Shown in pieces: positions 36,529 through 64,000 of a stretch of DNA of 64,000 bases. The notes beneath the pieces were generated by a model. That model did no database searches. It was given only the letters and a program-made list of their open reading frames with translations, and was not told the origin of the DNA. A program made the position numbers and the translations under genes. Position 1 is the stretch's first letter; each line of letters begins with the position of its first letter. The stretch comes from Streptomyces sp. NBC_00289 (GTDB lineage: Bacteria > Actinomycetota > Actinomycetes > Streptomycetales > Streptomycetaceae), in NCBI RefSeq assembly GCF_041435115.1, contig NZ_CP108046.1, positions 4,774,001 to 4,838,000 on the forward strand, read 5' to 3'.

Positions 36529-36568
36529 CCTGAGACAGTGACCCCTCTGGTCCGGCAGACTCGGAGGT
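36500..36568. other. Probable attL of the integrated element
   Basis: The junction between tadA coding sequence and element DNA lies near 36522-36530, 40 bases before the serine integrase start. This is the usual layout (int next to attP). The exact core dinucleotide cannot be fixed without attR or an empty site. Confidence 0.65.
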
Positions 36569-38077
36569 ATGAGCCCAACTCTCCGCTCCGCCGTCGACGT
36601 TGCCGCAGGTGGAAAGACCCGCGCCGTCATCTACGCCCGCATCAGCCAGGACCGCACCGGCGCCGGCCTCGGCGTCGACCGGCAGCGCGAGGACTGCGAG
36701 GCCCTCGCGGAACGTAACGGCTGGGACGTCGTCGAGGTGTACGTCGACAACGACATCTCCGCGTTCTCCGGGAAGAAGCGCCCGGCCTACCGGCAGATGC
36801 TCGCCGCCCTCGACGAGGGCAAGGCGACCGTCGTCATCGTCTGGCACACCGACCGGCTCACCCGCTCGATCGTCGAACTCGAGGAGTACATCGAGCTGTC
36901 CGACCGCCGCGGCATCGCCACGCACACAGTGCAGGCCGGGACGATCGACCTCGCCACGCCGTCCGGGCGGATGACCGCGCGGATCCTCGGCGCCGTCGCC
37001 CGCCAGGAGTCCGAGCACAAGGGGCACCGCGTGGCCCGGGCCCGGCAGCAGAAGGCCATGGCCGGCGAATGGGCGGGCGGGGTCCGCCCGTTCGGGTGGG
37101 GCGTGCCCACCGGCGAGGTGAAGAAGCGGGTCGACCGGAAGACCGGCGACGAGGGCGAGGTGCCCGAGCTCGACATGATGAAGGCCGTGCCCGAGGAAGC
37201 CGAGGCGCTGCGCCTGTGGACAGACACGATCCTGTCCGGCGGGTCGATCCGGTCCCTCGTGAAGTGGTGCGCCGACAAGGGCGTGACGACGAGCCGCGGG
37301 AATCCGGTCACGCACAGCGATATGCGGGAGATGCTGATGCGGCCGCGCAACGCGGGCATCGCCGTCTACCGGGGCGAGGAGGTCGGCCGCGGGAAGTGGG
37401 AGGCGATCGTCGACGAGGCGAAGTACCGGGCCGTCGTCGCGATCCTGTCCGACCCGGGCCGCACGGTGAACCGTGGTGCGCAGCCGAAGTGGGTGGGGTC
37501 GCTCCTGTACGTGTGCGGCCGCGGGGAGTGCGGCGCGGGGATGACGGTCACGCAGTCCGGGGGCCGCCGGTTCCCCAGCTACCGCTGCCCGACCGGGCAC
37601 GGCGGCGGCCGGCGGGCTGAGGTCGTCGACAAGTACGTTGAGGACACGATCGTCGAGCGGCTGTCACGCGACGACGCGCACGAGCTGTTGCTGCCCGGGC
37701 CGGACGAGGTGGATGTGGCCGGCCTGCAGGCGGAGAGTGAGGTCATCCGCCGGCGCATGACGGATCTGGCGGGCCTGTTCGGTGCGGGGCAGCTGGAGCT
37801 GGGGCCGTTCACTGAGGGCATGGACACGGCGCGCGGCCAGCTGGAGGGCGTGACGCAGCAGCTGGCCCGGGCGGCGACGCGGGATCCGCTCGTCGACTTG
37901 GTGGGGGCGCCGGATGTGCGGAAGGCGTGGAAGGCGCTGGGGCTGGACCGGCAGCGCAACGTGCTGCGGGCACTGGTCGAGGTGACGCTGAAGACGCCCC
38001 GCCCGGGCCGCATGCCGGACGGTGGGTACTTCGACTACGAGGCCGTCGTTTTCCAGTGGAAGCGGGGCTCTCGCTGA
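36569..38077 (+). CDS. int: Large serine recombinase (integrase)
   Basis: 502 residues. The N-terminal resolvase domain carries the catalytic Ser26 in YARISQDR and the conserved arginines in VDRQREDCE and DRLTRS. A recombinase domain follows (about 165-270, with GVRPFGW). Then comes a zinc-ribbon region with C-GRGE-C and a later C-PTGH, and a coiled-coil segment (about 385-440). It should catalyse directional attP x attB recombination. It lies right at the junction with tadA. A partner recombination directionality factor is expected; the small HTH proteins at 39045 or 52357 are candidates. Confidence 0.96.
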   Translation: MSPTLRSAVDVAAGGKTRAVIYARISQDRTGAGLGVDRQREDCEALAERNGWDVVEVYVDNDISAFSGKKRPAYRQMLAALDEGKATVVIVWHTDRLTRSIVELEEYIELSDRRGIATHTVQAGTIDLATPSGRMTARILGAVARQESEHKGHRVARARQQKAMAGEWAGGVRPFGWGVPTGEVKKRVDRKTGDEGEVPELDMMKAVPEEAEALRLWTDTILSGGSIRSLVKWCADKGVTTSRGNPVTHSDMREMLMRPRNAGIAVYRGEEVGRGKWEAIVDEAKYRAVVAILSDPGRTVNRGAQPKWVGSLLYVCGRGECGAGMTVTQSGGRRFPSYRCPTGHGGGRRAEVVDKYVEDTIVERLSRDDAHELLLPGPDEVDVAGLQAESEVIRRRMTDLAGLFGAGQLELGPFTEGMDTARGQLEGVTQQLARAATRDPLVDLVGAPDVRKAWKALGLDRQRNVLRALVEVTLKTPRPGRMPDGGYFDYEAVVFQWKRGSR

Positions 38078-38104: not shown

Positions 38105-38857
38105 CTACTTAGACATCCCCTTCCATTGACCGTTCTCCTCCTCCGTAGGTGGGTGGCCCGTCTCCTCTTCGACCAGCCTGTGCCACTCCTCGGCCATAAA
38201 TTGCCCTGCCCAATTTTGGCGCTCTTCAAGGGTGCTTGATGAGGGCTCCGCTTCCTTCTCTGCATCTTCAACCCAGTACTGCCTCATCCCTCTATGAGTC
38301 AGGATGTTCACCACTTCCTGATCCATGATCTCGTGCCTCGCCGCTACCTTCAGCAGGGCATTCGCCGCCTCATGAGTACGACGTACAGCGGCGCGTAGCG
38401 CCTCTCGCGCGTCTTCCTCGTTCGCTTCGGCATTCTGGTATCGCAGCTTGGCAGCCATCACTTGCATGCCAGCATCGCCTGTCGCCGGCTGGCCCTTGAG
38501 GAATTCACCCAGCTCAACACCCAGGGCCACGGCAATTGCGACCAGCTCGTTCAGTCGCCAGGGCCTTTCGCCGCGCTCGATCTTCGCGATCTGGGTTTGC
38601 GACAGCCTCACATCGTGATGGCCAGCTGCACGGTGCTCCGCAAGTCGGTCGGCAATCTGCTGTTGCGACACGCCCAACGCTGTTCGGAACTGCTTGAGGT
38701 TGAAGCTCGCGAGCGACTCGGTGTCCAACCCGTCGAGGGGATGAGGCGGGTCATAGTCGACTCCGCGCCTCTCCGACACCTCGGCCACCGCCCGCATCAT
38801 CAGGCTGTCGCTCTCCTCCTGATCGGCTGCAAGTCGGTCCATGTCATCAGGCATCAC
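38105..38857 (-). CDS. XRE-family repressor of the element
   Basis: 250 residues from a GTG at 38857, seven bases after GAGGAG; an ATG at 38875 is in frame but overlaps that site. An XRE helix-turn-helix covers about residues 50-115 (FRTALGVSQQQIADRL...LSQTQIAKIERGERPW), with a longer-than-usual loop between helices. The C-terminal half is highly charged, probably helical and used for dimerisation. It is the only leftward gene of the element, and it faces a strong rightward promoter. It is the likely maintenance repressor. Confidence 0.88.
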   Translation of the reverse strand: MMPDDMDRLAADQEESDSLMMRAVAEVSERRGVDYDPPHPLDGLDTESLASFNLKQFRTALGVSQQQIADRLAEHRAAGHHDVRLSQTQIAKIERGERPWRLNELVAIAVALGVELGEFLKGQPATGDAGMQVMAAKLRYQNAEANEEDAREALRAAVRRTHEAANALLKVAARHEIMDQEVVNILTHRGMRQYWVEDAEKEAEPSSSTLEERQNWAGQFMAEEWHRLVEEETGHPPTEEENGQWKGMSK

Positions 38858-40595: not shown

Positions 40596-40768
40596 TCACG
40601 GCGAACCTCATCGTCGACCTCGACAACGTCCGCGCCCGGTACGAGTGCCACCGGCCAGGCTGCACGGAGCCGCGAGAGGGACCCGTCTTCGGCACCGAAG
40701 ACGTGCGCGCCTTCGTCGCCGTCATCCGTAACGACCACCGCGCCCGCTGCACCGGAGAGTCACGTTGA
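40592..40768 (+). CDS. Short putative zinc-finger protein
   Basis: 58 residues from a GTG. YECHRPGC at residues 18-25, then HRARC near the end, form a possible single zinc finger. It overlaps the preceding stop and the primase start (TTGA), so expression is coupled. Confidence 0.7.
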   Translation: MITANLIVDLDNVRARYECHRPGCTEPREGPVFGTEDVRAFVAVIRNDHRARCTGESR

Positions 40769-43431
40769 ACGACGCACAGACCCCTGACCTCCGGGCTTCC
40801 GCTCGCGAGCTGTACGACGCCGGCCTGTGCCCCCTTCCCGTCAAGGCCGACGGCAGCAAGTCTCCCGACGTGCGCAGCTGGACCCCGTACAAGGTCACCC
40901 GCTCCACGCCGGAAGAGCACGACCAGTGGTTCAACAACGGCCGCCACACCGGCATCGGCGTCGTAACCGGCGCCGTGTCCGGGAACATCGAGCTCATCGA
41001 GTTCGAGGGCCTGGCCGTGAAGGAAGGCGTCCTCGACGAGGTCGCCGAGCTCGCGCAGAACAGCGGGCTCGGCGACCTGTGGGAGGCAGTCACCACCGGG
41101 TGGGCCGATCAGTCACCTTCTGGCGGCGTGCACTACAAGGTCATCGTCAAGGGCAGGCCCGCCGCGGGGAACACCAAACTCGCGCGGCGCCTCGCCCGTG
41201 AGGATGAGTACACGCCGGAGGAACGGCAGCGTCTCGCGGAGAAGCCCACCTCGAAGATCGTCCGGGTGCTGATCGAGACGCGCGGCGAGGGCGGCTTCGT
41301 CGTCATCGCCCCGTCGCACGGGCCCACGCACCCGAGCGGGAAGCCCTACGTCCGGCTCGCCGGCGGGCCGACCACGATGACCGTCGTCGAACCGGAGGAG
41401 CTCGACGCCCTGTACGCCCTGTGCCGGGCGCACGACGCGATGCCCGCAGACGAGAAGGCGAAGACCGCTCCCCGCCCTAAGCGGGAGCTGCCCGCGGGAC
41501 ACGTCCGGCCCGGCGACGACTTCGAGAACCGGACCGACTGGCCCGAGATCATCGGCGACGAGTTCGATCCGATCTTCACCCGCGGCAACACCACGTACTG
41601 GCGGCGCAAGGGGAAGAACCAGGGGATCTCGGCAACGACCGGCCACGCCGCGGACCGCGACCGGCTGTACGTCTTCACCACCTCGACCACGTTCGAGTCC
41701 GAGACGCCCTACGACAAGTTCGCCGCGTACACCCACCTGACGCAGGGCGGCACCACCACCGAGCACTTCAAGCGCGCCGCCGCCGAGCTGCGCAACCGGA
41801 ACTTCGGATCCGAACCGCCGCGTCAGCGGCTCCGGTCGGTGCCTCCCCGGACCAGCGGGCACTTCACGGACGGGTCCTCGGCCATCGACCCGGACTCGGC
41901 GCCCGACGAGCAGGAGACGACGGCCAGCGGACCGGATCTCCGGATCGTCGTGACCAAGCCCGAGCTGGACATCACCAACGAGGCCGACGCCATCGACGGG
42001 CTGCTCGACCTGATGGCCGGCGAACGGCTTCCCGATCTGTACAAGCGGTCCTCCGGCCCGTGCTGGGTCCACGAGGACGACGAGAACAACCCGGTCGTCA
42101 AGCAGCTGGGCGCGGACAACCTGCGCGCCTACCTCGCGGACCAGGTCACCACTTACCAGGTCGTCAAGGACCCGTTCACCGAGGGCACCAAGGAAGTCCG
42201 GGAACTGGTCATGCCCAAGACCTGCAGCACCATCCTGGGACGGAGGGACTGGCCGCTCCTCCCTCTGCGGGGAATCGTCACCTCACCCGTCGTCCGGCCC
42301 GACGGCACCCTGATCCAGGCCCCGGGGTACGACCGGGCCACTGGCCTCTACCTGCACCCCCGGATCCCGCTGCGCAGGCTGGCACCGCAGGTCACGGCTG
42401 AGTCCGTCGAGCGGGCCAAGGACATCATCCTGAACCAGATGCTCGCCGACTTCCCTTTCGTCGACGACTCCGACCGCGCCCACTTTCTGGGGGCGCTCCT
42501 CACACCGATCCTGCGGCCGTACTTCTACGGCCCGACGCCTGCGTTCATCATCACCGCGACCGCTCCCGGCAGCGGCAAGAGCCTGCTGAAGGACATCCTC
42601 AAGTACTGCTACGGCATCGCGGAAACCGCGTGGCCGGAGAACGACACCGAGCTGCGGAAGTCCATCACGACGCAGCTCTACACCACGGGTCAGCCGGTCG
42701 TGGTCCTCGACAACCTGCCCAACGGGTTCATCATCAAGAGCCCAGTGCTGTCGAGCCTGTTGACCGCGGAGCACTGGGGCGACCGTGTCCTCGGCTCCAC
42801 CGCGTCCGTGACCATGCGCAACGACCGCGTGTGGATCATCACGGGCAACGGCCTCCGTACCGGCGGAGACAACGGGCGTCGCGCCATGTGGGTGCGCCTC
42901 GACCCGAACTGCCCCGACCCCGACCAAAGGGATGGGTACAAGGTCGGCGACCTCCGCCCGTGGCTCCGCACGAACGCGTCCACTGTCGTCGCGGCCCTCG
43001 TCACGATGGTCCGCGCGTGGCTAGCCGACGGGGCGAAGACCGTCCGCAAGCGCAAGGGCGACTACTCGGAGTGGGCCAGCATGCTCGCCGGCCTGCTCGC
43101 GTACCTCGGCGTCCCCGACTGGCTCGCCGACTCCGAGGCCGGCCAGGACGAGGAGGAGCTCCTGTGGGCTGCCTTCCTCGCGGCGTGGCACCGGGAGCTG
43201 GGGAACGAGCCTGTTCCCACCGGGCTGATCATCGCGCGGATGGCTGAGCACATGCCTCGGGGACGAAACGGAGAAATGCCCACGCCTCAGGGGCTGGGCG
43301 GATGGCTAAGAAGCCGGGACGGCCGCTACTTCAAGGCCCCCGAGGTCGGCTCCTTCAAGCCGGTCAAGGTCTGGGACGCACACAAGTGCCAGAACCTGTG
43401 GCGCGTCGAGTCCCACGGGGGTGCGGCATGA
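40765..43431 (+). CDS. Bifunctional primase-polymerase with AAA+ helicase domain
   Basis: 888 residues from a TTG start overlapping the upstream stop. The N-terminal prim-pol domain (about 1-230) opens with ARELYDAGLCPLPVK and GIGVVTGAVSGNIELIEFEG; the usual acidic metal pair is Glu rather than Asp here. The second half has a helicase/ATPase core with Walker A TAPGSGKS (about residue 600), Walker B-like VVVLDNL and a sensor-like IITGNGL. Enzymes of this design initiate replication of AICEs and of some phages. It is followed at once by an iteron array, supporting a role as the element's replication initiator. Confidence 0.88.
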   Translation: MNDAQTPDLRASARELYDAGLCPLPVKADGSKSPDVRSWTPYKVTRSTPEEHDQWFNNGRHTGIGVVTGAVSGNIELIEFEGLAVKEGVLDEVAELAQNSGLGDLWEAVTTGWADQSPSGGVHYKVIVKGRPAAGNTKLARRLAREDEYTPEERQRLAEKPTSKIVRVLIETRGEGGFVVIAPSHGPTHPSGKPYVRLAGGPTTMTVVEPEELDALYALCRAHDAMPADEKAKTAPRPKRELPAGHVRPGDDFENRTDWPEIIGDEFDPIFTRGNTTYWRRKGKNQGISATTGHAADRDRLYVFTTSTTFESETPYDKFAAYTHLTQGGTTTEHFKRAAAELRNRNFGSEPPRQRLRSVPPRTSGHFTDGSSAIDPDSAPDEQETTASGPDLRIVVTKPELDITNEADAIDGLLDLMAGERLPDLYKRSSGPCWVHEDDENNPVVKQLGADNLRAYLADQVTTYQVVKDPFTEGTKEVRELVMPKTCSTILGRRDWPLLPLRGIVTSPVVRPDGTLIQAPGYDRATGLYLHPRIPLRRLAPQVTAESVERAKDIILNQMLADFPFVDDSDRAHFLGALLTPILRPYFYGPTPAFIITATAPGSGKSLLKDILKYCYGIAETAWPENDTELRKSITTQLYTTGQPVVVLDNLPNGFIIKSPVLSSLLTAEHWGDRVLGSTASVTMRNDRVWIITGNGLRTGGDNGRRAMWVRLDPNCPDPDQRDGYKVGDLRPWLRTNASTVVAALVTMVRAWLADGAKTVRKRKGDYSEWASMLAGLLAYLGVPDWLADSEAGQDEEELLWAAFLAAWHRELGNEPVPTGLIIARMAEHMPRGRNGEMPTPQGLGGWLRSRDGRYFKAPEVGSFKPVKVWDAHKCQNLWRVESHGGAA

Positions 43432-43442
43432 CCAGCCTCTTT

Positions 43443-43765
43443 GCAGGGAGTGCAGGGACTTGGCAGGGATCCGTGCAGGGACCTGCGGGCCTCCCTGCGC
43501 CGCCTCTGATCAGCGGAAAGGCAGGGACGCAGGGACCTGCAGGGAGGAATCCCATCCTCCCTACTGCACACGCGCATCACATGCACATCGCACATCACAC
43601 ATGTATCGCACTGCGTGATGAACACGTTGGGATCTCTCCCTGTCGCAAAGGACTTGAGGAAAGTCCCTGCAACTCCCTGCCTCCCTGCAAAACACCCGGC
43701 CAACGCGTTTTCGCCCGCCACTCCAACTCCCTGCACGGGTCCCTGCGACTCCCTGCACTCCCTGC
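43443..43765. repeat. Opposed GCAGGGA iteron arrays, candidate replication origin
   Basis: Seven GCAGGGA copies on the plus strand (first bases 43443, 43452, 43463, 43475, 43521, 43529, 43539). Eight exact TCCCTGC copies point the other way (43492, 43664, 43674, 43682, 43728, 43740, 43750, 43759), plus a one-mismatch copy at 43637. Spacing within runs is 8-12 bases. Between the arrays lies an AT-richer spacer (about 43565-43620) with repeated CACATCRCA-like words. The layout resembles plasmid origins with initiator-binding iterons. Alternatives are an operator array or a centromere-like site. The small open frames here (e.g. from 43428) are probably not genes. Confidence 0.8.
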
Positions 43766-43800
43766 AAACCCGCAGGACAACGCGAGCCGAGGTGACTGCC

Positions 43801-45438
43801 ATGTCCGCACTGCCTGAGACCTTCACCCCGAGGCCGTACCAGGTCGACGCAATCAAGGCGCTCACCACCGGCTGGCAGGGTGCTCACGACCGGCTCGCGG
43901 TCGTCCTTCCCACCGGCGCCGGGAAGACCGTGGTGTTCGCGAACCTCATCCTCGACCGCCTCACCGCCCTCGCGGACGCCGGACAGCGCGCCCTGGTCAT
44001 CGCCCACCGCGAGGAACTCATCCAGCAGGCCGTCGGCAAGATCAGGGCCGTGTGCCCGCAGCTCCGCGTCGGCATCGTCAAAGCCGAGCGCGACGAGCAC
44101 GACGGCGTGGACGTCATCGTGGCCAGCGTGCAGACCCTCGCGGTCGAGCGTCGCCGCCAGGCGATCCAGGACGTCGGCCTGATCATCGTCGACGAATGCC
44201 ACCACGCCGCAGCCTCGACCTACCTCGACGTTCTCGAACACTTCGGGGCCTGGCGCGGTATCCCCGTCGCCGGCTTCACCGCCACGATGACCCGCCAGGA
44301 CGGCGGCCTGGGCGAAGTCTGGGAAGACGTCGTCTTCACCCTCGACATCCTGGAGATGATCGAGGACGGCTACCTCTGCGACGTCCGCGGCAAGCGCGTC
44401 ATCGTCGAAGGCCTCGACCTCGACAAGGTCAAGACCCGTAACGGCGACCTCGCCGACGGACAGTTGGGCCAGGCGCTCGACGACTCCGGCGCGGCGAAGG
44501 TCGTGGCTGAGGCGTACCGGCAGCACGCGGGCGACCGGCCCGGCGTGGTCTTCACCCCGACCGTCGACACCGCCCAGTCCATGGCGGAGGCCTTCACCGC
44601 CGCGGGGATCCCGGCGGCGGCCGTCTGGGGCGACATGCCCAAGGACGACCGCGCCGCCGTCCTCGACCGGTACAAGGCCGGGACCGTCCAAGTCCTCACG
44701 AACTGCATGGTCTTGACTGAGGGCTTCGACGCCCCATGGACATCCTGTGTCGTCATCGCCCGCCCGACGAAGTCCGCCGGCCTGTACTGCCAGATGGCCG
44801 GGCGGGGGCTGCGCCTGTGGGAGGGCAAGAAGGACGCCCTGATCCTCGACGTGATGGGCGCGTCCACCCGACACAAGCTTGCCTCCATCGTCGACCTCAC
44901 CAGCCGTGAGGTCGTCATGACCGACGAAGATCAGACGTTGCGCGAGACCGTTCGCGCAGCCGAGGAGAAGGCGAAGCAGGTCCTCGACCTGTCACGCGTC
45001 CAGGTCGAGGAGGTCGACCTGTTCCACGGGTCCGCCCTGCGGTGGCTGAAGACGGACTCGGGGGTGTGGTTCATCCCGGTAGGGGACGCGGCCTTCGTCT
45101 TCCTGATCCGTAACCCGGTCGACCGGACCTACTGGCTGCGCCGCTTCGACTACGACAACGGCATGGTGGGCCCGAAGCACGACGCACCACTGCCGCTGCC
45201 GGAGGCCAAGGCGTGGCTGGAGAACCAGGCTCGGACGATGGGCAGCCGTTGGCTCGCCGCTCGTACCGCGCCGTGGCGCAACAAGCCGGCCAGCGTGAAG
45301 CAGTTGAACTTCTGCCGGGCGAAGGGGATCGCAGTACCTCACGGCAGCAGTGCCGGTGAGGTCTCCGACCTACAGGCCGTGCATCAGTTCAACGCCATCC
45401 TCGTCCAGATCACTGCTGCCGCCGCATCCGCGGCCTGA
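43801..45438 (+). CDS. SF2 DEAD/DEAH-type helicase
   Basis: 545 residues from the ATG at 43801, which has GAGGTGA just upstream; an earlier in-frame ATG would run through the iterons. Motifs: Q-like RPYQVDAI, Walker A LPTGAGKT, motif II IIVDECHH, motif III GFTATMTRQD, and C-terminal LTEGFDAPW and QMAGRGLR. It resembles the restriction-type/UvrB-like helicases that AICEs and phages carry after the primase. It probably unwinds DNA for element replication. A C-terminal segment (about 395-545) has no clear domain. Confidence 0.9.
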   Translation: MSALPETFTPRPYQVDAIKALTTGWQGAHDRLAVVLPTGAGKTVVFANLILDRLTALADAGQRALVIAHREELIQQAVGKIRAVCPQLRVGIVKAERDEHDGVDVIVASVQTLAVERRRQAIQDVGLIIVDECHHAAASTYLDVLEHFGAWRGIPVAGFTATMTRQDGGLGEVWEDVVFTLDILEMIEDGYLCDVRGKRVIVEGLDLDKVKTRNGDLADGQLGQALDDSGAAKVVAEAYRQHAGDRPGVVFTPTVDTAQSMAEAFTAAGIPAAAVWGDMPKDDRAAVLDRYKAGTVQVLTNCMVLTEGFDAPWTSCVVIARPTKSAGLYCQMAGRGLRLWEGKKDALILDVMGASTRHKLASIVDLTSREVVMTDEDQTLRETVRAAEEKAKQVLDLSRVQVEEVDLFHGSALRWLKTDSGVWFIPVGDAAFVFLIRNPVDRTYWLRRFDYDNGMVGPKHDAPLPLPEAKAWLENQARTMGSRWLAARTAPWRNKPASVKQLNFCRAKGIAVPHGSSAGEVSDLQAVHQFNAILVQITAAAASAA

Positions 45439-45511: not shown

Positions 45512-45712
45512 ATGTCCCCGAACGAGATCCAGATGCTCATCGTCGGCATCGCCTTCGGCGCCCACTGCATGAACATCACGCACATCGTGCTCGACGCCCG
45601 GGCCGCACGCCGCAGCGCGGCAGCCTCGCGCGGCGTGCGACGCCTCGCGGCGGGCGAGCAGTTCCTCAGCAGCTTCCGCCTGTACCGGATGCAGCACCGG
45701 AGCCGGGCGTGA
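45512..45712 (+). CDS. Small membrane-anchored protein
   Basis: 66 residues with GGAGGG before the ATG. One hydrophobic N-terminal helix (MLIVGIAFGAHCMNITHIVL) is followed by a basic tail. Coupled to the next gene (GTGA). Unknown function; AICE transfer regions often hold such short Spd-like proteins. Confidence 0.75.
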   Translation: MSPNEIQMLIVGIAFGAHCMNITHIVLDARAARRSAAASRGVRRLAAGEQFLSSFRLYRMQHRSRA

Positions 45713-46338
45713 CCGCGGCCTGCGGCCTGTGCGAGCGCGCCCTCGAGCACGGCTACCTGTGCCCCGGGGACACGCTCGCCCTGGCGGAACGCCTCCACCG
45801 GATGCCCCGCCTGTACGAGGCGCTCGGCGCGTTCCTCGCCCCGGCCGTCCGCGGCGCCGGCGAGCGCGTGGCCAGCGGCCACCCCGGCTCGCGGCTGCCC
45901 GTCGACGAGGCCGTCCTCGATCTCCGGTACGGGGGCATCGCCCTGGTGCTGGAGTCGTGGCGGTCCGACGTGCAGGCCGCGCGCGGCTGGGGGCAGCCCG
46001 CCGTCGAGGGCAGCGTGGAACGCCGGGTGTTGGCTGCCTCTCGCTGGCTCGGCATGAGCCTGGAGTGGATCGCCTCGTCGTACCCGGCGGCCGGCGATCT
46101 GGCCCGGGAGGTACGGGAGGTGGAGGGTGCGGCCCTGTCCATCGTCGGGGCGAAGCCGGACCGTGGCCGCCCGGTCGGGCAGTGCGTGGCGGTCGACGTG
46201 TCCGGGGTGGTGTGCGGGTCGACGATCCGTCACCGCGCCGGCGAGACGAAGCTCGTGTGCGACTGGTGCCACTGCGTGTACGGCACCGAGCAGGATCTGC
46301 TGCTGCTCCTGCACTACCAGCCGAAGGAGTTGGCGTGA
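45709..46338 (+). CDS. Hypothetical protein with two zinc-binding cysteine sets
   Basis: 209 residues from GTG. It begins CGLCERALEHGYLCPGD (a possible zinc knuckle) and has a second cysteine set near residues 163-190 (CVAVDVSGVVCG, then CDWCHC). The middle is helical. Coupled by 4-bp overlaps on both sides. I have the impression that this type is common in Streptomyces phages and AICEs, but I cannot name the role. Confidence 0.8.
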   Translation: MTAACGLCERALEHGYLCPGDTLALAERLHRMPRLYEALGAFLAPAVRGAGERVASGHPGSRLPVDEAVLDLRYGGIALVLESWRSDVQAARGWGQPAVEGSVERRVLAASRWLGMSLEWIASSYPAAGDLAREVREVEGAALSIVGAKPDRGRPVGQCVAVDVSGVVCGSTIRHRAGETKLVCDWCHCVYGTEQDLLLLLHYQPKELA

Positions 46339-52320: not shown

Positions 52321-52356
52321 TGGATCACCCCTCCTGTACCCCGCCCAGGCGGCATC

Positions 52357-53756: not shown

Positions 53757-53911
53757 CGCGCGCGAGCGGTCGACTCAAGATCACCTTGCCGGGCCGGCCC
53801 ATTCTTTAGCGGGAGGGGCGGGAGCCTCCCATCCCGCGGCCGTCCTCGACGGGGTCCACGTTCGCCAGCATCAACCTGTCGCGCACCGAGTCGAGCCTGC
53901 AGAAGGTCGCG

Positions 53912-54931
53912 GTGTGGGCGGCGACGGACCTGGTGTCCTCCCTGGTGGCGACGCTGCCCCTGGACGTCTACGAGGGCACAGGGGCGTCGCGGCGGGAGCT
54001 GCCGCTACCGAAGGTGCTGGAGGACCCGGCGGGCGACGGCTACGGCCTGGCCGACTGGATCTACCAGTACATGATGTCGCTGCTGCTGCGGGGCAACACC
54101 TACGGCCGGACCGCTGACCGGGACCGGCTCGGCAACCCGACGCAGGTGGTGCTGTACCACCCGGACGAGGTGCAGGGCTGGCGCGACGTGAAGGATGGTC
54201 TGCCCCGTTGGCGGGTGGGCGGCGAGATGGTCGACGAGCCGGCGGACATGTGGCACCAGCGGGCCTACTCGATTCCCGGCCGACTGCTCGGTCTGTCGCC
54301 GGTCGCGCACCACGCGACGACGATCGCGCAGGGTCTGGCGGCTGCCCGGTTCGGACAGCAGTTCTTCGAGGAGGGCGGCGCCCCGTCCGGGCTGCTGACC
54401 AACGAGCAGGCCCTGGACGCGAAGCAGGCGTCCGTGGCGAAGGACCGGTTCCTGGCCGCGCTGCGCGGATCGCGTGAGCCACTGGTGCTGGGCCAGGGCT
54501 GGAAGTACCAGCCGATCTCCGTGAACCCGGAGGAGTCCCAGTTCCTGGAGACGCAGAAGTACACGTCCGCCGAGTGCGCGCGGATCTACGGGCCGGGCAT
54601 GCCGGAGATCCTCGGCTATGAGAGCGGCGGCTCGATGACCTACGCCAACGTCGAGCAGCGTTCGCTCGACCTGCTGACCTACGCCCTCGACCGGTGGCTG
54701 GTGCGCACAGAGCGCATGTTCACCTCGATGCTGCCCGCCGGGCAGTACGTGAAGCTCAACCGCAAGGCGCTGGCCCGCACCGACCTGCTGACCAGGTTCC
54801 GCGCGCACGCCCTCGCGCTGCAGAACCGGTGGACGACGCCGAACGAGGTGCGCGACGTCGAGGACCAGACGCCCGTGAAGTGGGGCGACGAACCGAATGC
54901 GGCTCCCGCACCGAAGGTGCAGATCGACTGA
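53912..54931 (+). CDS. Phage portal protein, apparently 5'-truncated
   Basis: 339 residues from the first possible start (GTG). It is an HK97-type portal: VWAATDLVSSLVATLPLDVY, LLRGNTYG, the stem/wing region and SMTYANVEQRSLDLLTYAL. Homologous-looking sequence (STFASINLSRTESSLQKVAV) lies in frame upstream back to 53810, but it contains no ATG, GTG or TTG and is closed by a TAG at 53807. The gene thus lacks its natural start, unlike its neighbours. Either a deletion removed the 5' end together with the terminase genes, or an unusual start is used. Confidence 0.82.
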   Translation: MWAATDLVSSLVATLPLDVYEGTGASRRELPLPKVLEDPAGDGYGLADWIYQYMMSLLLRGNTYGRTADRDRLGNPTQVVLYHPDEVQGWRDVKDGLPRWRVGGEMVDEPADMWHQRAYSIPGRLLGLSPVAHHATTIAQGLAAARFGQQFFEEGGAPSGLLTNEQALDAKQASVAKDRFLAALRGSREPLVLGQGWKYQPISVNPEESQFLETQKYTSAECARIYGPGMPEILGYESGGSMTYANVEQRSLDLLTYALDRWLVRTERMFTSMLPAGQYVKLNRKALARTDLLTRFRAHALALQNRWTTPNEVRDVEDQTPVKWGDEPNAAPAPKVQID

Positions 54932-54944: not shown

Positions 54945-55616
54945 GTGAGCGTCAAGAGTGATCGCGCCAAGCGGTCCGGGACCGAGCGGCGCGCGTTCCC
55001 CGTGCAGCTCGAGGTGCGCGCCAAGGCGGGCGCCAGCAACGTGTCGACGGTCGAGGGGTACGCCTCGGTCACCGAGGAGCCGTTCGAGATGTGGGACTGG
55101 CTGGGTCCGTACAGCGAGGTCGTCCGCACGGGCGCCTTCGGCAAGACCCTCGCCGAGAACCCGCAGGTGCAGCTGCTGCTGAACCACGGCGGCCTCGCCA
55201 TGGCCTATACGAAGGCCGGCAGCCTTCGCCTGTCGGAGGACGCGACCGGCCTGCACATGGAAGCCGACGTCTCCACGAAGCGCTCCGATGTGGGCGACAT
55301 GCTCGCGGCCCTCGAGGAGGGCAGCGTCGACGAGATGTCGTTCGCGTTCCGGGTCACCCGCCAGCAGTGGTCCCCGGACTACGACCAGCGCGACATCCTC
55401 GAAGTGGACCTGCACCGCGGCGACGTGTCCGTCGTCAACTTCGGAGCCAACCCGGCTACCTCGGTCGGCGCCGTGCGCGCCGCCGACTTCGACCGTCTCG
55501 ACGAGACGGACGCGCGGGCGCTGTACGAGCGCCTGCACCGCCGGTTCCAGCCCGCCGGGGCGGAGCCGGCCACCATGTCGCTGTACCAGGCGCAGGCCGT
55601 TCTTCTCGGCCTGTAG
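54945..55616 (+). CDS. HK97-family prohead protease
   Basis: 223 residues from a GTG after AGGAGGGG. The U35 protease pattern is visible: VEGYASV, GAFGKTL, a catalytic His in LLNHGG and Ser in VDEMSFAF. It should process the capsid precursor after assembly. 13 bases after the portal stop. Confidence 0.9.
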   Translation: MSVKSDRAKRSGTERRAFPVQLEVRAKAGASNVSTVEGYASVTEEPFEMWDWLGPYSEVVRTGAFGKTLAENPQVQLLLNHGGLAMAYTKAGSLRLSEDATGLHMEADVSTKRSDVGDMLAALEEGSVDEMSFAFRVTRQQWSPDYDQRDILEVDLHRGDVSVVNFGANPATSVGAVRAADFDRLDETDARALYERLHRRFQPAGAEPATMSLYQAQAVLLGL

Positions 55617-55760: not shown

Positions 55761-57182
55761 ATGCTCGCCTACCTGCGCAAGCAGATGACAGCCGCGCTCG
55801 AAGCCCGGGCCGCGCTGAAGACCGACATCGACGGCATCGTCAAGAGTGCCGAGACGGCCGGCCGGGAGAAGCTTTCCGCGGACGAGCAGTCCGCGTTCGA
55901 CGCGAAGCGTTCCGAGCTGCGTTCGAAGGACGGCGAGATCGAGGACCTCGACGCCCGGATCAAGGACCTGGAGGAGGACGAGAAGCGGGAGCAGCGTGCC
56001 GCCTCGATCCTCGCCGAGCAGCGGCAGGCCGGCGAGCGCCGTGAGCGCGTCACTGTCGTCTCGGAGCCGGAGACCTACCGCAAGGGCGGTCAGACCTCCT
56101 ACTTCCGCGACCTGTTCCGCGCGCAGATGAAGGGCGACACGTCGTCCATCCAGCGCCTGTCGCGCAACGACCGCGAGGTGACCGACCGCCTGGAGCGGAT
56201 CCACCGCGGCGCCGAAGAGGCCCTCCAGGGCATGGAGGCCCGCGCCCTCACCACGACGGACGGCGCGGGCGGGGAGTTCGTCCCGCCGCTGTGGATGATC
56301 AACGACTACGTCGAGCTGGCCCGAGGCGGCCGCGTCATCGCCGACCAGGTCCGCCCGATGGCGCTGCCCCCGGGCACCGACTCCATCAGCCTGCCGCGCG
56401 TCGCCACCGGTACCGCCACGGCGGAGCAGACCACGCAGAACACCGCGGTGCAGGACACGGACGCGACCACCAACTCGGTGACCGCGAACGTCGCCACCAT
56501 CGCGGGCAAGCAGGTCGTCGCCCAGCAGCTGCTGGACCAGTCCCCGCTCAACATGGACCAGATCCTGCTCGCCGACCTGGCGGCGGACTACGCGGTCAAG
56601 GCCGACGCGTTCGTCATCAACAACAACGCCACCAACAAGGTCGGTCTGCTCAACGTGTCCGGCCTCAACGCGGTGACGTACACCGACGCGACGCCCACGA
56701 CCGCCGAGCTGTACCCGAAGGTCGCGGACGGCATCCAGCAGATCCACACCGGGCGGTTCCTGCCCGCCGACAAGATCTTCATGGCGCCCCGCCGGTGGGC
56801 GTGGTTCACCGCGGCGGTCGACACCGCTGGCCGGCCGCTGGTCGTGCCGTCGGCGAACATGCCGCAGAACGTCCTGGCTGCCATGGGGGCCGTCGCGTCC
56901 GAAGGGTTCGTCGGCACGCTGCAGGGGCTGCCGGTCTACGTCGACCCGAACATCCCGATCAACCTCGGGGCGGGCACGAACGAGGACCGCATCATCATCC
57001 TGCGCTCGACGGACGTCATCTTCTTCGAGGGCACCCCGCAGGCTGAGGCGTTCCGCGAGACGAAGGCCGACCAGCTGTCGGTCCTGCTGCGGTTCTACAA
57101 CTACGCGGCCCTGCACGCCTCCCGCTACCCGAAGTCCATCTCCGTGATCTCCGGCACCGGCCTGATCACCCCGACGTTCTGA
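55761..57182 (+). CDS. HK97-type major capsid protein
   Basis: 473 residues. Residues 1-100 are a charged coiled-coil scaffold (delta) domain, presumably cut off by the protease. The rest is the HK97 fold with GGEFVPPLW, the E-loop region, and GTLQGLPVYVD and LRFYNYAALHA near the end. A GAAGGGAG ribosome site precedes the ATG. The 144-base gap before it holds no gene. Confidence 0.93.
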   Translation: MLAYLRKQMTAALEARAALKTDIDGIVKSAETAGREKLSADEQSAFDAKRSELRSKDGEIEDLDARIKDLEEDEKREQRAASILAEQRQAGERRERVTVVSEPETYRKGGQTSYFRDLFRAQMKGDTSSIQRLSRNDREVTDRLERIHRGAEEALQGMEARALTTTDGAGGEFVPPLWMINDYVELARGGRVIADQVRPMALPPGTDSISLPRVATGTATAEQTTQNTAVQDTDATTNSVTANVATIAGKQVVAQQLLDQSPLNMDQILLADLAADYAVKADAFVINNNATNKVGLLNVSGLNAVTYTDATPTTAELYPKVADGIQQIHTGRFLPADKIFMAPRRWAWFTAAVDTAGRPLVVPSANMPQNVLAAMGAVASEGFVGTLQGLPVYVDPNIPINLGAGTNEDRIIILRSTDVIFFEGTPQAEAFRETKADQLSVLLRFYNYAALHASRYPKSISVISGTGLITPTF

Positions 57183-57505: not shown

Positions 57506-58063
57506 GTGGCGCTGCTGACACTGGCCGAAGCCAAGGCGCAGCTCGACATCGACACGAGCACCGACGACCTCGAGCTACAGGTGTACGTCAACGCGCTCAC
57601 GGCCACGATCGAGCGGCACGTGGGCCCCGTGGAGATCCGCACCGTCACCGAGACGGTCAACTCCCGCGGGCCTGCACTGGCGCTCACCCAGGCGCCGGTG
57701 GCGTCCCTGACCTCGCTGACACCGCTGCAGATGGGCGGTACGGCCGTCGCCGTCGAGGACGTCTACGTCGACCCCGACTCCGGGGTAGTCCGCCGCGCGG
57801 ACGGCGGCAACTTCTACGGCGGGCCGTGGCGGGCCGTGTACCAGGCCGGCCGGGGCAGTGTGCCGCCCACCATCAACCTCGCCGCCCGCATCCTGCTGCA
57901 GCACCTGTGGCGCACCCAGTACGGGGCGTCGCGCGGCCTGTCCGGGGTCGGCGGCGGCGACGACTACAGCGTGACCGAGCCGGTGCCCGGCTGGGGTTAC
58001 GCGATCCCCAACCGGGTCCTGCAGCTGCTGGAGCCGTACAAGGTTCCGCCGGGGGTGGCGTAG
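57506..58063 (+). CDS. Head-tail connector protein (HK97 gp6-like)
   Basis: 185 residues from GTG. LLTLAEAKAQLDIDTSTDD at the N-terminus is characteristic of the gp6-type adaptor that docks below the portal. The helical ATIERHVG segment and a C-terminal extension follow. Confidence 0.85.
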   Translation: MALLTLAEAKAQLDIDTSTDDLELQVYVNALTATIERHVGPVEIRTVTETVNSRGPALALTQAPVASLTSLTPLQMGGTAVAVEDVYVDPDSGVVRRADGGNFYGGPWRAVYQAGRGSVPPTINLAARILLQHLWRTQYGASRGLSGVGGGDDYSVTEPVPGWGYAIPNRVLQLLEPYKVPPGVA

Positions 58064-58758: not shown

Positions 58759-59745
58759 ATGGCGATCGGATCCGGGCTCGGCGCCCAGCTCGGCGTCAGC
58801 GTCGAGTCGGCCTACGGCACGTTCGTGGCGCCGGCCAAGTTCGTGGAGTTCACGAAGGAGGGCATCGTCCTCAAGAAGACGACCGCCCAGTCCGCCGGCA
58901 TCGCGGCCGGGCGGCTGCTCGCCCTGTCGGCGCGGCGTGTGGTCACGCAGCGGGAGGCCTCCGGGTCGATCGACATGGAGGTCGTCAACAAGGGGATGGG
59001 GCCTTGGCTTCAGACCCTGATGGGCACGTCGGTCACCCCGGTGCAGCAGGCGGTGACTACGGCCTACCTGCAGACGCACACCCTCGCGGACACGGCGGGC
59101 AAGAGCCTGACGATCCAGAAGGGCGTGCCGCTGACGACGGGCACGGTGACCGACAAGACGTTCATCGGCTGCAAGATCACCAGCGGTGAGTTCTCCTGCG
59201 AGGTCGGGCAGATGCTCACGGCCTCGTTCGAGATTGACGCGAAGGACTGCGACGAGGCTCAGACGCTGGCGGCCGCGTCGTACTCGAACATGTCGCCGTT
59301 CAACTTCTCGCAGATGGCCGTCAAGACGGGCAGCTTCGGGACGGAGACGGCGCGCGACGGTGTCCGCAAGGTCTCGGTCAAGATCGAGCGGCCCATGGCC
59401 GTCGACCGCTTCTACGCGGGCCAGGCCGGGCTGAAGAAGGAGCCCATCTCCAACGACCAGGTGAAGATCACCGGGACGATCGAGATGGACTACGTCGACA
59501 CCACGCTCGATGACCTGCACACATCCGATGCGGCGACGTCCCTGGTGTGGGAGTTCGTGGGCCCGCTCATCGCGTCCACGTACTTCGAGACGTTCCGCAT
59601 CACGCTGCCCGCGGTGAAGTTCGACGAGGCGCCGCCGACCGTGGACGGCTTCGGAGTCGTGAAGCCGACGCTCCAGTTCACCGCCCTGTTCGACGGCACC
59701 AATCAGCCGAAGATCGAATACATCTCCACGGACTCCACGCTGTGA
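58759..59745 (+). CDS. Major tail tube protein
   Basis: 328 residues. GSGLGAQLGVSVESAYGT at the start and the repeated beta strands fit a siphovirus tail tube protein of the duplicated kind common in actinophages. Position between connectors and chaperones supports this. Confidence 0.85.
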   Translation: MAIGSGLGAQLGVSVESAYGTFVAPAKFVEFTKEGIVLKKTTAQSAGIAAGRLLALSARRVVTQREASGSIDMEVVNKGMGPWLQTLMGTSVTPVQQAVTTAYLQTHTLADTAGKSLTIQKGVPLTTGTVTDKTFIGCKITSGEFSCEVGQMLTASFEIDAKDCDEAQTLAAASYSNMSPFNFSQMAVKTGSFGTETARDGVRKVSVKIERPMAVDRFYAGQAGLKKEPISNDQVKITGTIEMDYVDTTLDDLHTSDAATSLVWEFVGPLIASTYFETFRITLPAVKFDEAPPTVDGFGVVKPTLQFTALFDGTNQPKIEYISTDSTL

Positions 59746-60260: not shown

Positions 60261-60270
60261 GAGCAACCCC

Positions 60271-60720: not shown

Positions 60721-60857
60721 CCTATCTGCCGCTGTTCGCGTTCTACCTCCACCTCACCCCGGACGACGTCGACTCCCTCACCGAGGAACGGTTCGAGCTG
60801 CTCGCCGCCTGGATCGACAACCACCAACAGGCCCAGCTTCGAGGAGGTGAGGGATGA
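60271..60857 (+). CDS. Tail assembly chaperone, -1 frameshift product (GT-type)
   Basis: Reading the first frame to the slippery site at 60663-60669 and then the -1 frame gives a product that ends at 60857. The added part includes SDRVLTYLPLFAFYLHLTPD and LLAAWIDNHQ, helical as in T domains. The stop overlaps the tape-measure start (ATGA). Confidence 0.78.
60663..60669 (+). promoter_or_regulatory. -1 ribosomal slippery heptamer C CCA AAA
   Basis: CCCAAAA in the correct phase (C CCA AAA) matches the XXXYYYZ rule. No stop intervenes between it and the -1 frame extension. Confidence 0.75.
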
Positions 60858-63800
60858 GCCAGCGTCTGCGGTTCGTCCTCGACGGCGACGACCAGCTGTC
60901 CCCTGTCCTCAACCATGCAGGGGACGCATCCGCCCGCCTGCACCGTCGCCTCAACGACGACATGGACGCCAACAGCCGGGCGGTGCACGGCTTCACCCGG
61001 GGCGCCGACGGACGGCTGCGCGACCTGCGCGGCCGCTTCCTGTCCGTGGCCGACGCCCAGCGCGCGATGGCCGGAGGCATGCCCGACCTGACGCGCCGCC
61101 TCGGCGACGTGAGCTCCGCCAGCGGCAACGCGTCCTCAAGCCTCGGGGGTTCAGGCGGCGGCCTGGGCGGCGCCATGATGGGCGTCGCAGCAGTGGCCGG
61201 CCTGTCGCTGCTGCCCGCGCTCGGCGCCCTGGTGCCCATGGCGGCCGGGGCGGGGCTGGCCATGGGCACGCTCAAGCTCGGTTTCGCCGGAGTCAGCGAA
61301 GCCATGGCTGTGGCGGGCGACAAGAAGGAGTTCGCCAAGCAGCTCAAGACAATGTCGCCGCCCGCCCGGGAGTTCACCAAGGCGCTCGTCTCGCTGAAGA
61401 AGGAGTTCGGCGGGGTCGGCAAGGAGATCCAGAAGGCGATGCTGCCCGGCTTCACCGCGGCGGTGAAGGCCGCCGGTCCCGTGGTCAAGATCCTCGGCAA
61501 GTCCATGGTCGAGATGGGCAGCGCGTTCGGCGATGCCGCCGAGGGCGTCGGCCGGATGATGAAGGACTCCGGCTTCCAGGACTCGCTGCAGAAGAACCTG
61601 CAGCTGGGCACCGGCTTCATCCGCGACATGACGTCGGCGATGGGCCCGTTCATCCGCAGCCTGCTCGACTTCGGCGCCGCGTCCGGCCCGACGCTCAAGG
61701 CGTTCTCGGACGGCATCGGCGGCCTGCTCACCAAGGGACTGCCCGGCCTGTTCCAGGGACTTGAGCCCGGCATCGGCGGCGCGGCCAAAATGCTCGACGG
61801 CCTGTTCGCCTCCATCAACTCGATCCTGCCCGCGCTGGGACGGCTGTCCGGCGAGATGGGCCGCACCCTGGGCCCCGTCTTCGGCGAGACGTTCCGCATC
61901 CTGGGCGACATGGCGGCCGGCGCCATGGACGGCCTGGCGGGCGGACTGAAAGCGCTGAGCCCCGTCTTCCGGGATCTCACCTGGGGGCTGCAGTCCATCC
62001 GGGACCTGGCCGCCATCGTCGGCCCGACGATGGCAGACACCGGCCTGGCGATCATCGGCGCGTTCGCCCCGGTGGGCGACACAGTCAACAAGACGGCCGG
62101 ACCGCTGCAGCGCCTCAACGGATGGATCAACAACAACAAGGGCGCCATCATGGAGGCGAGCCGGGTCTTCGCCAACGGCTCCATCCTGATGGTGTCGGCC
62201 GCGATCCAGATGGCCCCGCCTGTGATCAAGGCCTTCCGCATCATGTCCACGGGTGTCCTTGCCGCGATGTCCGTGATGCTGCACGGGGCGGAGGCCGCGT
62301 TCGGCTGGCTGCCCGGCATCGGCGGCAAGGTCAAGGCGGCGAGCAAGGCGTTCGACCAGTTCGCCACCGTCTACATCGGCGCCCTCAACGTGGCGGAGCG
62401 GAAGGCCAACGACTTCGCCTCGAGCACCCAGCAGCGGCTGGCCGCCGGGAAGCTGAAGCTGGACATCAACAACTGGCAGTCGCAGATCGAGGCGGCCAAG
62501 GCGAAGCTGAAGACGGTGCCGCCGTCCAAGCAGGCCGCACTGCGGGCGACCATCGCCGACCTGCAGAACAAGGTCGCCCAGGCCAAGGGCGCACTGGCCA
62601 GCATCCAGTCCCGGTCGGTGACCATCACCGCGTTCGTCCAGTACAAGGGCCGCAGCATCGCCGCGGTGTCCGCCGGCCGGATGGCGACCGGCGGCCCGAT
62701 CGGATTCCCCGGCGGCGGCCCAATCCGGGGTGCGGGCACGGGCACCTCGGACAGCATCCCGATCATGGCCTCGAACGGCGAGTACATGATCAACGCCAAG
62801 TCGACGTCGAAGTACCGGCCGATCATCGAGGCCATCAACCAGGACACCCTTGGCTCCGGCCAGGGCATGGCGGGCGCGGGCGCGGCTGTGGGCCAGGGCC
62901 TGATCTCCGGCATGTCCGGCTCGGCGGCCGGAGTCGGCGCGGCTGCCCGGTCGATGGCGGCCGCGGTGACGGCCGGCGTGAAGACCGAGCTGGAGATCGC
63001 CTCCCCGTCGAAGAAGATGAAGGCGCTCGCCAAGGACGTCGGCAAGGGCCTGATCATCGGACTCACCGGTTCCCGCGACAAGATCAAGGCGACGGCCAAG
63101 GATCTGGCGACGGACATCCGTACCGCGTTCTCCGGGCGGAAGGAGTCCAGTCTCCTCAAGTACGTCGACCATCACACGGACCGACTGCTGAAGGCGGCGA
63201 AGAAGCGGGACGCCGTCGCCTCCCGGATCGCCGAGGCGAAGGCGTTCGCCGCCGACGTCACGCACGGGGCGAAGGAGTCCGCGTCCCTGTCCAACCTGGG
63301 CATGGGCGAGGGTGAGGTCACCGCGGGCGGCATCAGGGCGGGCCTCGCGGGCAAGCTGTCGCAGGTCAAGCAGTTCACCCGGTACATCGAGATCCTCGCG
63401 AAGAAGGGCCTGTCCAAGACCCTGCTGAAGCAGATCCTCAACATGGGCCCGGACGCGGGTTTCGCCTACGCGAGCGCCCTGGTCGGCGCGGACAAGGGAA
63501 CTTTCTCCTCGATCAACAAGCTGCAGGGCCGGGTCAACGACGCCAGCGGCCGACTCGGCAAGGTGGGCGCCGACCGGCTGTACGACAGCGGCAAGAACGC
63601 CAGCAAGGGCTTCCTCGCTGGTCTGCAGTCGCAGCAGAAGTCGATCGAGAAGCTCATGACCGACATCGCCAAGGGCATGCAGAAAGCCCTGCGCAGAGCG
63701 CTGGGGATCAAGAGCCCGTCCACGGTCATGGCCCGCCTCGGCGCCTACTCGACGCAGGGCCTGGCCCGCGGCCTGGTCGACGGCCTGCCCGTCCTCGACC

Positions 63801-64000
63801 GGGCCCTCGGCACGGTGTCAGGCCGGGTCGCCGCGACGCAGCCCGTCATCGGCCGGCCCGCCGTCGCGGCCGGTGGTGGCGGGGCGACGGTGATTCAACT
63901 GCACGTCGAGGTGCGGCCGGGCGCGGATGCCGAGGCGGTGTGGTCGGAGATCCGGACCGGCCTGCTCTCTCTGAAGCGCCACCACGGCCTGGCCGAACTG
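60854..64000 (+). CDS. Tail tape measure protein, 3' end outside window
   Basis: 1,049 codons are in view and the frame is open to the right edge. Typical tape measure: N-terminal coiled region, Gly-rich hydrophobic helices (about 105-135), long helical repeats, a central MATGGPIGFPGGGPIRG turn with SDSIPIMASNGEYMI, and a C-terminal LEIASPSKKMKALAKD / LGIKSPSTVMARLG pair. These two SPS motifs are shared with many actinophage tape measures. It sets tail length and helps eject DNA. It is coupled to the chaperone by ATGA. The closing context suggests only a few codons are missing. Confidence 0.92.
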   Translation, partial: MSQRLRFVLDGDDQLSPVLNHAGDASARLHRRLNDDMDANSRAVHGFTRGADGRLRDLRGRFLSVADAQRAMAGGMPDLTRRLGDVSSASGNASSSLGGSGGGLGGAMMGVAAVAGLSLLPALGALVPMAAGAGLAMGTLKLGFAGVSEAMAVAGDKKEFAKQLKTMSPPAREFTKALVSLKKEFGGVGKEIQKAMLPGFTAAVKAAGPVVKILGKSMVEMGSAFGDAAEGVGRMMKDSGFQDSLQKNLQLGTGFIRDMTSAMGPFIRSLLDFGAASGPTLKAFSDGIGGLLTKGLPGLFQGLEPGIGGAAKMLDGLFASINSILPALGRLSGEMGRTLGPVFGETFRILGDMAAGAMDGLAGGLKALSPVFRDLTWGLQSIRDLAAIVGPTMADTGLAIIGAFAPVGDTVNKTAGPLQRLNGWINNNKGAIMEASRVFANGSILMVSAAIQMAPPVIKAFRIMSTGVLAAMSVMLHGAEAAFGWLPGIGGKVKAASKAFDQFATVYIGALNVAERKANDFASSTQQRLAAGKLKLDINNWQSQIEAAKAKLKTVPPSKQAALRATIADLQNKVAQAKGALASIQSRSVTITAFVQYKGRSIAAVSAGRMATGGPIGFPGGGPIRGAGTGTSDSIPIMASNGEYMINAKSTSKYRPIIEAINQDTLGSGQGMAGAGAAVGQGLISGMSGSAAGVGAAARSMAAAVTAGVKTELEIASPSKKMKALAKDVGKGLIIGLTGSRDKIKATAKDLATDIRTAFSGRKESSLLKYVDHHTDRLLKAAKKRDAVASRIAEAKAFAADVTHGAKESASLSNLGMGEGEVTAGGIRAGLAGKLSQVKQFTRYIEILAKKGLSKTLLKQILNMGPDAGFAYASALVGADKGTFSSINKLQGRVNDASGRLGKVGADRLYDSGKNASKGFLAGLQSQQKSIEKLMTDIAKGMQKALRRALGIKSPSTVMARLGAYSTQGLARGLVDGLPVLDRALGTVSGRVAATQPVIGRPAVAAGGGGATVIQLHVEVRPGADAEAVWSEIRTGLLSLKRHHGLAEL

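Follow-up and report, generated by a model that had tools for sequence, protein, structure and literature searches.

A cpaF-integrated Streptomyces prophage with a putatively captured AICE-type DNA transfer cassette

A 64-kb stretch of the chromosome of Streptomyces sp. NBC_00289, in which genes resembling those of actinomycete integrative and conjugative elements (AICEs) run into siphovirus virion genes, raises the question whether it holds one mobile element with two toolkits or an accidental junction, and whether such an element could spread by hyphal contact as well as in particles. The window, i.e., the whole stretch of 64,000 nucleotides that was analyzed (C1:4774001-4838000 of the 11.0-Mb genome G000), lies together with its flank within one 10.6-Mb contig. 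We read the element as a temperate Streptomyces siphophage in cpaF, of a phage lineage that appears to have captured a double-stranded DNA (dsDNA) transfer cassette from AICEs. The probability of this whole reading, including the transfer role, is put at about 0.6. Judged from sequence, the anatomy and lineage of the element as read are close to certain, and it is an even call whether the cassette transports DNA from one compartment or cell to another. New here, according to the loci compared, is an array of about 150 bp of GTAG-core repeats directly 3' of the translocase gene, which phages and AICEs appear to have in common.

The borders were derived from the right flank, gene calling, and alignment to an intact cpaF gene and to the sister prophage G170. 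A single element spans positions 36521 to 71993 (35.47 kb), its right end lying 8 kb beyond the window. The 2-bp cores of the attachment (att) sites are at 36521-36522 and 71993-71994, 35,472 bp apart, the latter being the attR that a sequence-only reading of the window had expected to the right. The element interrupts a cpaF/tadA-type ATPase gene, whose 5' part starts at 71995 and whose 3' part stops at 36520, and the phage arm CAGGTTCGGGAA at attL is also found in G170, which is inserted in the same gene. Whole-genome searches with the serine (PF07508) and tyrosine (PF00589) integrase families gave no second integrase inside the element. With its single att pair it is one serine-integrase element, as had been proposed, and as far as these searches go the part from 52.7 to 64 kb is not a separate prophage with an integrase of its own.

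35899..36520, minus strand: 3' part of the split host gene for a cpaF/tadA-type ATPase (T2SSE domain in the 5' part, which starts at 71995)
36521..36522, no strand: attL core of 2 bp (AA when read on the cpaF strand), where the 3' part of host cpaF meets the element (attR core 71993-71994, outside the window)
36569..38077, plus strand: large serine integrase, 502 aa (Resolvase and Recombinase domains; 67% identical to the G170 prophage integrase)

The integrase gene is followed by genes for a regulator, small proteins and a Prim-Pol protein, by iterons, and by genes for a helicase, further small proteins, membrane proteins and an FtsK-like translocase. Then come a repeat array, a hairpin, and genes for an HNH endonuclease, a kinase-like protein, portal, protease, capsid and head-tail adaptor, and finally those for tail tube, tape measure, a large tail-region protein and an endolysin. 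The parts named by the sequence-only reading (integrase, Prim-Pol, iterons, membrane proteins, FtsK-like protein, portal, protease, capsid, tail tube and tape measure) are all present on the plus strand in the order it gave. It had overlooked that the large terminase and the portal N-terminus are absent, that the element extends to 71993, and that a repeat array lies 3' of the FtsK gene.

The translocase and the repeats downstream of its gene

50087..52177, plus strand: AICE-type FtsK/TraB-like DNA translocase (696 aa; conserved Walker motifs A, G351-T359, and B, D459-E460)
52175..52330, no strand: array of GTAG-core repeats (~150 bp) resembling a clt (cis-acting transfer site), starting in the translocase stop codon
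52631..52675, no strand: perfect 18-bp stem with 9-nt loop, probable terminator at the cassette end

Homology of the translocase to FtsK translocases is clear from its tree position and fold. The predicted structure had a mean pLDDT (predicted local distance difference test) of 71, with mostly 80-96 in the motor region and poor values in the first 230 residues. It possesses the motor fold, the best structure matches being FtsK motor domains (E 3e-14), followed by the conjugation protein TcpA (E 9e-14). The protein matched phrog_1358 with E 1e-27 and the Pfam FtsK/SpoIIIE model (PF01580) with 21.8 bits, below the cut-off of 24. The helix-strand pattern of the model at residues 613-686 fits a winged-helix-like C-terminal region. 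Inspected by eye, the phage translocases have a C-terminal segment that looks close to that of relatives sharing their repeat and unlike that of a more distant translocase class. The dN/dS ratio (nonsynonymous to synonymous substitution rates) was 0.135-0.348 in 15 translocase pairs, those lacking the window sequence being a random part of the possible pairs, which indicates that the translocase is under purifying selection.

The array begins in the stop codon, and repeats such as TAGAGGGG with their GTAG core occur on both strands within the first 150 nt past it. All five matches of the motif TAGNGGGG in the 64-kb window fall within 52175-52317, and shuffled sequences led us to expect 4.2 over the whole window; their number is unremarkable, their clustering is not. 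Within 303 nt counted from the stop codon, TAGNGGGG occurred at least once in 12/12 close-clade loci, 5/5 other phage loci and 47/47 remaining loci of the same translocase class, and at least twice in 42 of these 47, compared with 0.35-0.91% of random 303-nt stretches from the same loci. The 47 loci are AICE-type, a label that for loci other than the window stands for a translocase with no virion genes seen, few of them having been inspected gene by gene. Identical translocases entered these counts once; duplicates were kept in a looser count of GTAG/CTAC. There the densest 200-bp stretch of a locus began no more than 200 bp from the translocase stop codon in 46 of 69 loci; among the 14 top-scoring loci it did so in 13. 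Members of the more distant class carry another, CGCTAGC-like repeat at the same place (by eye). In plasmid pWTY27 the experimentally mapped clt, to which TraA binds, takes in 16 bp of traA plus the adjacent 159 bp and contains direct repeats (PMC3583192); for pSAM2, another paper states, no clt has been described (PMC9513070). Position and repeat style make it probable that the array is a clt.

The perfect hairpin that had been reported at 52631-52675 is indeed present and is probably a terminator, although this is a guess. In the closely related prophage of Streptomyces sp. WAC 01529 (G093, the same genome as L222), DNA identity to the window (86.7%) stops at 52681, six bases past the hairpin, and a different virion module lies beyond. 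Hairpins of other sequence were present at about the same place in five of 14 close relatives (L164, L165, L173, L189, L222; the L165 translocase is an identical duplicate); the other nine, represented in part by short stretches, showed no perfect stem of at least 11 bp.

Recurrence in phage and AICE-type loci

Relatives of the capsid gene were found in 16 of 323 genomes of the genus and relatives of the translocase in 56 (63 matches). Virion genes adjoin the translocase in the window and in G093, a one-contig chromosome with the same gene order and a 92% identical translocase, among 48 examined places out of the 63 (the window and 47 others). Terminase, portal, capsid and tape measure genes lie near it in G093, and G034 has a tape-measure-like gene only. 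In the remaining 45 places no virion genes were seen beside the translocase, as far as the local reference set can show, which is small (phiC31, R4, SV1, VWB, mu1/6, pPaSha2, window, G170, G093 and second-round hits) and may overlook distant genes; it failed to pick up the L188 portal, which was detected later. A PF03354 survey missed relevant terminases and phrog_9 scored at most two candidates per genome, and neither was used in the co-location counts. Terminase plus portal were present in three of 43 species-genome loci (S. cupreus PSKA01, Streptomyces sp. AcH 505 and WAC 01529).

The arrangement, which had been proposed for a search in other genomes, thus recurs in G093, and it does so in IMG/VR as well, where 25 loci encode translocase relatives. 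Thirteen of them, including L188, have terminase and portal; L169, L172 and L183 have a terminase on stretches that end soon after, L179 and L180 (15-kb contigs) a terminase without portal, and seven have neither, of which L168 and L176 stop soon after the translocase gene. In the close clade (L164-L176 and L183; n = 14) a large terminase lies downstream in 12, and the two contigs without it end ~0.3 and 1.5 kb past the translocase gene.

In a tree of 104 distinct translocases the window sequence falls in a 12-row clade (support of 100 in the Shimodaira-Hasegawa-like approximate likelihood ratio test, SH-aLRT) nested among AICE-type sequences. Eleven rows, including the window, are phage-associated, and the L168 sequence is too short to assign. 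The translocases of this clade are 89-94% identical, and a large terminase follows wherever sequence suffices, except in the window copy. Five further phage loci carry related AICE-type translocases; L181, L184, L185 and L195 are scattered among AICE-type rows, L188 groups with a few sequences next to the main clade, and that of the plasmid pPaSha2 is far off. The phage and AICE labels require at least 6 changes versus 15.1 in shuffles (0/500 as low), a count that is blind to gain versus loss and in which L188 was labeled as other and identical translocases entered once. The nesting of phage rows among AICE-type sequences suggests several captures of the cassette from AICEs.

Among the best 120 of 640 relatives in the protein database, the first 29 clusters showed 88-93% identity, and those after them fell to ≤79%. 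A non-phage relative (67% identical) is encoded on a circular record of Streptomyces decoyicus together with Prim-Pol, GntR and recombinase genes. By tblastn against 50,697 phage records only phage Gilgamesh (two records) matched, with 25% identity over 43%; the objection, raised with the original proposal, that the translocase might be a standard core gene of a known phage group was rejected as far as these records go. Scans of viral contigs, which required exact short peptides so that absence is weak evidence, gave one relative of the pPaSha2 translocase and none of the distant-class translocases. On these comparisons the hybrid is real, recurrent and under selection, and no accidental junction.

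Several loci showed isolated virion genes. An AICE-like element of G312 (C24 about 170.3-185.4 kb; L067:5343-20000) with tyrosine integrase, Prim-Pol and FtsK was found through its lone intact HK97 capsid gene (L067:11899-13242), 64% identical to that of the window, with no other virion gene seen. AICE-type loci with one or two virion genes were L203 (12335-16526, capsid and tape measure), L180 (11738-14987, terminase followed directly by a tyrosine integrase), L192 (16355-21270, tape measure and small terminase), and L227 (12403-16110), L219 (13520-15823) and L208 (17749-21618), each with a tape measure. Tape-measure labels were checked in PHROGs for L177, L182, L192, L200, L203, L208, L219 and L227; L182 best fits an endolysin family and L200 is weak. 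Such loci could be satellite-like elements.

Virion, packaging and replication genes

52763..53047, plus strand: HNH endonuclease
53319..53756, plus strand: P-loop kinase-like protein, matching part of a terminase small subunit family
53757..53911, no strand: scar; compared with G170, the large terminase and the N-terminus of the portal are gone
53912..54931, plus strand: portal protein, frame N-terminally truncated
54945..55616, plus strand: S78 prohead protease
55761..57182, plus strand: HK97-type major capsid protein
57506..58063, plus strand: head-tail adaptor (phrog_442)
58759..59745, plus strand: tail tube protein
60854..64000, plus strand: tape measure protein (runs on to 64012, beyond the window; phrog_305, E 3e-32; 53% identical to the G170 protein)

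The siphophage virion proteins (HK97-type capsid, portal, protease, tail tube and tape measure) are all encoded in the element. The G170 prophage shares the cpaF att site, the serine integrase (67%) and the virion module (capsid 73%), and differs in having a large terminase and a full portal, a DUF2637 membrane gene, no FtsK match and no array. Its 503-aa large terminase (phrog_9, E 2e-73) is encoded between the kinase-like gene and the portal gene. This interval measures ~156 nt in the window versus ~2,323 in G170, i.e., about 2.2 kb are missing. The portal frame of the window aligns with G170 from residue 16 on, contains an in-frame TAG at 53807-53809 and has its first start codon (GTG) at 53912. 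No large terminase was found in the element (best tblastn match E 0.13), and the G170 terminase gave no match in the G000 genome at E 0.001 in a search run without a positive control. Because the large terminase and the start of the portal are missing, the window copy is probably a packaging-defective prophage, for which self-packaging is improbable. The idea that the FtsK-like translocase substitutes for the terminase was rejected because the two genes occur together in relatives. At the place of the cassette, G170 has the DUF2637 gene and small genes (L064:16878-18979) without a translocase match. Elsewhere in G000, another large terminase (phrog_9) is encoded at C1:6334554-6336185 and a serine recombinase at 6349168-6349500; the region is probably a second prophage and a possible helper for the packaging-defective element.

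38105..38854, minus strand: helix-turn-helix (HTH) regulator, possible repressor
40765..43431, plus strand: Prim-Pol replication protein (PF09250 38.8 bits vs. cut-off 22.8; phrog_19930, DNA polymerase/primase)
43432..43800, no strand: iterons (TCCCTGC heptamer, 15 copies over both strands), likely origin
43801..45438, plus strand: DEAD/ResIII helicase
45709..46338, plus strand: g33, phage-group marker
47350..47712, plus strand: g38, small protein, also beside AICE-type translocases
47709..48569, plus strand: g39, membrane protein (two hydrophobic segments; MerR/HTH_17-like domain at the C-terminus)
48566..49054, plus strand: g40, membrane protein with hydrophobic segments, also beside AICE-type translocases (Spd-like by position only)

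The claim that the first part bears AICE hallmarks stood for the translocase, which is AICE-type by the tree. It was rejected for Prim-Pol and iterons: the closest family of the Prim-Pol protein is a phage one, with relatives in Arthrobacter phages (43.5-46% identity over 37-39%), and the neighboring replication genes track the phage group. Upstream of the translocase, g33 was present in 15/15 phage loci versus 0/34 others and the helicase gene in 8/15 versus 0/34, whereas g38 (10/15 versus 13/34) and g40 (14/15 versus 10/34) occurred in both; L188 counted here as other, not as phage. The Prim-Pol gene (1/15 versus 0/34) lay mostly outside the stretches compared. Since g33 and the helicase are restricted to phage loci and g38 and g40 are not, the AICE-like part appears to be small, namely the translocase, its array and some adjacent small and membrane protein genes, and those replication genes that were tested follow the phage group. 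The two membrane proteins had been called Spd-like; their hydrophobic segments were found at 47709-48569 and 48566-49054, and the label rests on position. A relative of g39 exists in phage mu1/6 (54% identity over 64%), and its match to phrog_16651 is confined to the C-terminal HTH part.

Fifteen of the 18 TCCCTGC heptamers of the window fall within 43432-43800. At the corresponding place G093 (L060:12701-13037) has ten copies of the heptamer GCGTACC; the sequence has switched and the plan is kept. In G000 the element is integrated in the chromosome and does not count as a phage-plasmid, i.e., an extrachromosomal replicon; iterons and Prim-Pol suggest that the excised form may be able to replicate. 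As a side observation, same-score recombinase genes at C1:138682 and C1:10487175, and likewise at C1:83782 and C1:10541920, have opposite orientation and near-equal distances from the contig ends, and probably mark long terminal inverted repeats of a linear chromosome.

Competing explanations and significance

AICEs have been defined by a site-specific integrase at one end, a replication protein of the RepSA, RepAM or Prim-Pol type, and an FtsK/SpoIIIE translocase (PMC3218068). By these criteria the element, which has an integrase gene beside one att site, a Prim-Pol replication protein and a single FtsK-like translocase that scores below the PF01580 cut-off, resembles AICEs of the pSAM2 and SLP1 class, and like AICE-type loci it has a repeat array beside the translocase gene. 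It differs from them in its siphovirus virion and endolysin module and in g33 and the helicase, which the 34 other loci compared lack. Close known counterparts are the WAC 01529 prophage and IMG/VR loci L164-L176 and L183, which share the translocase, the array, the g33 and g40 neighbors and downstream virion genes with the window. They differ in having a terminase where the contig is long enough; G093 has a tyrosine-type integrase, and in G093 and several others portal and capsid belong to other families. Plasmid pPaSha2 of Pseudonocardia alni (CP052773, a circular record) likewise combines FtsK, a DUF2637 gene, terminase, portal, protease and capsid, but is extrachromosomal, its FtsK is just 33% identical, and the array motif was not matched after its FtsK gene. 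The plasmid-phage pZL12 of Streptomyces is a linear plasmid, as opposed to the integrated serine-integrase prophage described here. The traA-clt region of pWTY27 shares with the element a single translocase gene and a repeat-rich 175-bp clt overlapping its 3' end, but has a different repeat sequence and belongs to a plasmid studied for replication and conjugation. In the literature searched, which left out most subscription journals, no publication was found on this phage group or on a clt of AICEs. The hybrid is better read as a phage with a putatively captured AICE transfer cassette, in a lineage where such capture seems common.

If the cassette works in transfer, replicating phage DNA would be recognized at the clt-like array by the C-terminal domain of the translocase and driven as dsDNA across septa or hyphal contacts, and infection or prophage would spread in the mycelium without particles, besides particles where packaging genes are intact. 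Dual transfer by particle and hyphal contact is plausible. A fuller proposal is somewhat more doubtful, and we offer it tentatively: phages of this lineage would have two routes, the virion and a captured TraB-type translocase that works on its own clt and sends naked dsDNA across septa and points of hyphal contact, and the cassette would have come from AICEs on more than one occasion.

Several points weigh against a captured transfer function. The curated plasmid TraB model NF041214 gave 16.2 bits versus a cut-off of 800, the N-terminal hydrophobic stretch (~150-187) is weak (best 19-residue mean 1.51 versus the usual 1.6), and the N-terminal region was modeled at low confidence. The motif TAGNGGGG was chosen after viewing the window and the phage loci, so that only the AICE-type loci are an independent check, and in the looser GTAG/CTAC count the densest stretch lay elsewhere in 23 of 69 loci. 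AICE likeness was judged from published criteria and from the AICE-type loci. Because G170 has the same site and virion module without FtsK match or array, the cassette is dispensable in this phage group, and the terminase loss makes the window copy a poor test case.

The strongest alternative is that the translocase serves the phage inside one cell, in segregation, DNA resolution at septa or as a replication aid, and no longer moves DNA between hyphae. The weak membrane segments and the distant FtsK-like gene of Gilgamesh fit this, as do FtsK-like genes of other Streptomyces phages, for which a replication role has been suggested (Geonosis, PMC11536984). The nearest non-phage relatives are, however, AICE-type translocases, together with which the C-terminal region and the array have been kept, and we consider a purely intracellular role unlikely, though worth weighing. 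It is clearly less probable that the repeats form a regulatory or terminator region carried along with the gene, as opposed to a transfer site. It does sit between two genes with the hairpin ~300 bp on, but it comprises several repeats on both strands from the stop codon and recurs at the same place in AICE-type loci; moreover, the distant translocases have their different repeat there, and the pWTY27 clt occupies the same position.

A tandem of an AICE and a prophage in one att site, fused by deletion of the middle, would account for the two-part look, the scar at 53757-53911 and the sister phage without FtsK in the same site. This explanation was rejected as very improbable: the same order, with 89-94% identical translocases before different terminase-bearing virion modules, recurs elsewhere, the deletion lies inside the packaging genes and not at the module border, and phage-group replication genes occupy the supposed AICE side. 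An assembly artefact, for which nothing was found in favor, is negligible in view of the single 10.6-Mb contig and the same order in the one-contig WAC 01529 chromosome.

AICE surveys based on integrase, replication and FtsK genes alone may count such prophages as AICEs, to judge from the criteria in PMC3218068. The array is a directly testable candidate transfer site for AICEs. If the cassette works, phages could cross a mycelium without lysis or receptor, which would change the view of phage spread, superinfection and transduction in multicellular bacteria. Should spread by both routes hold true, along with repeated capture of the cassette from AICEs, the phages and the AICEs of mycelial bacteria would form one exchanging pool.

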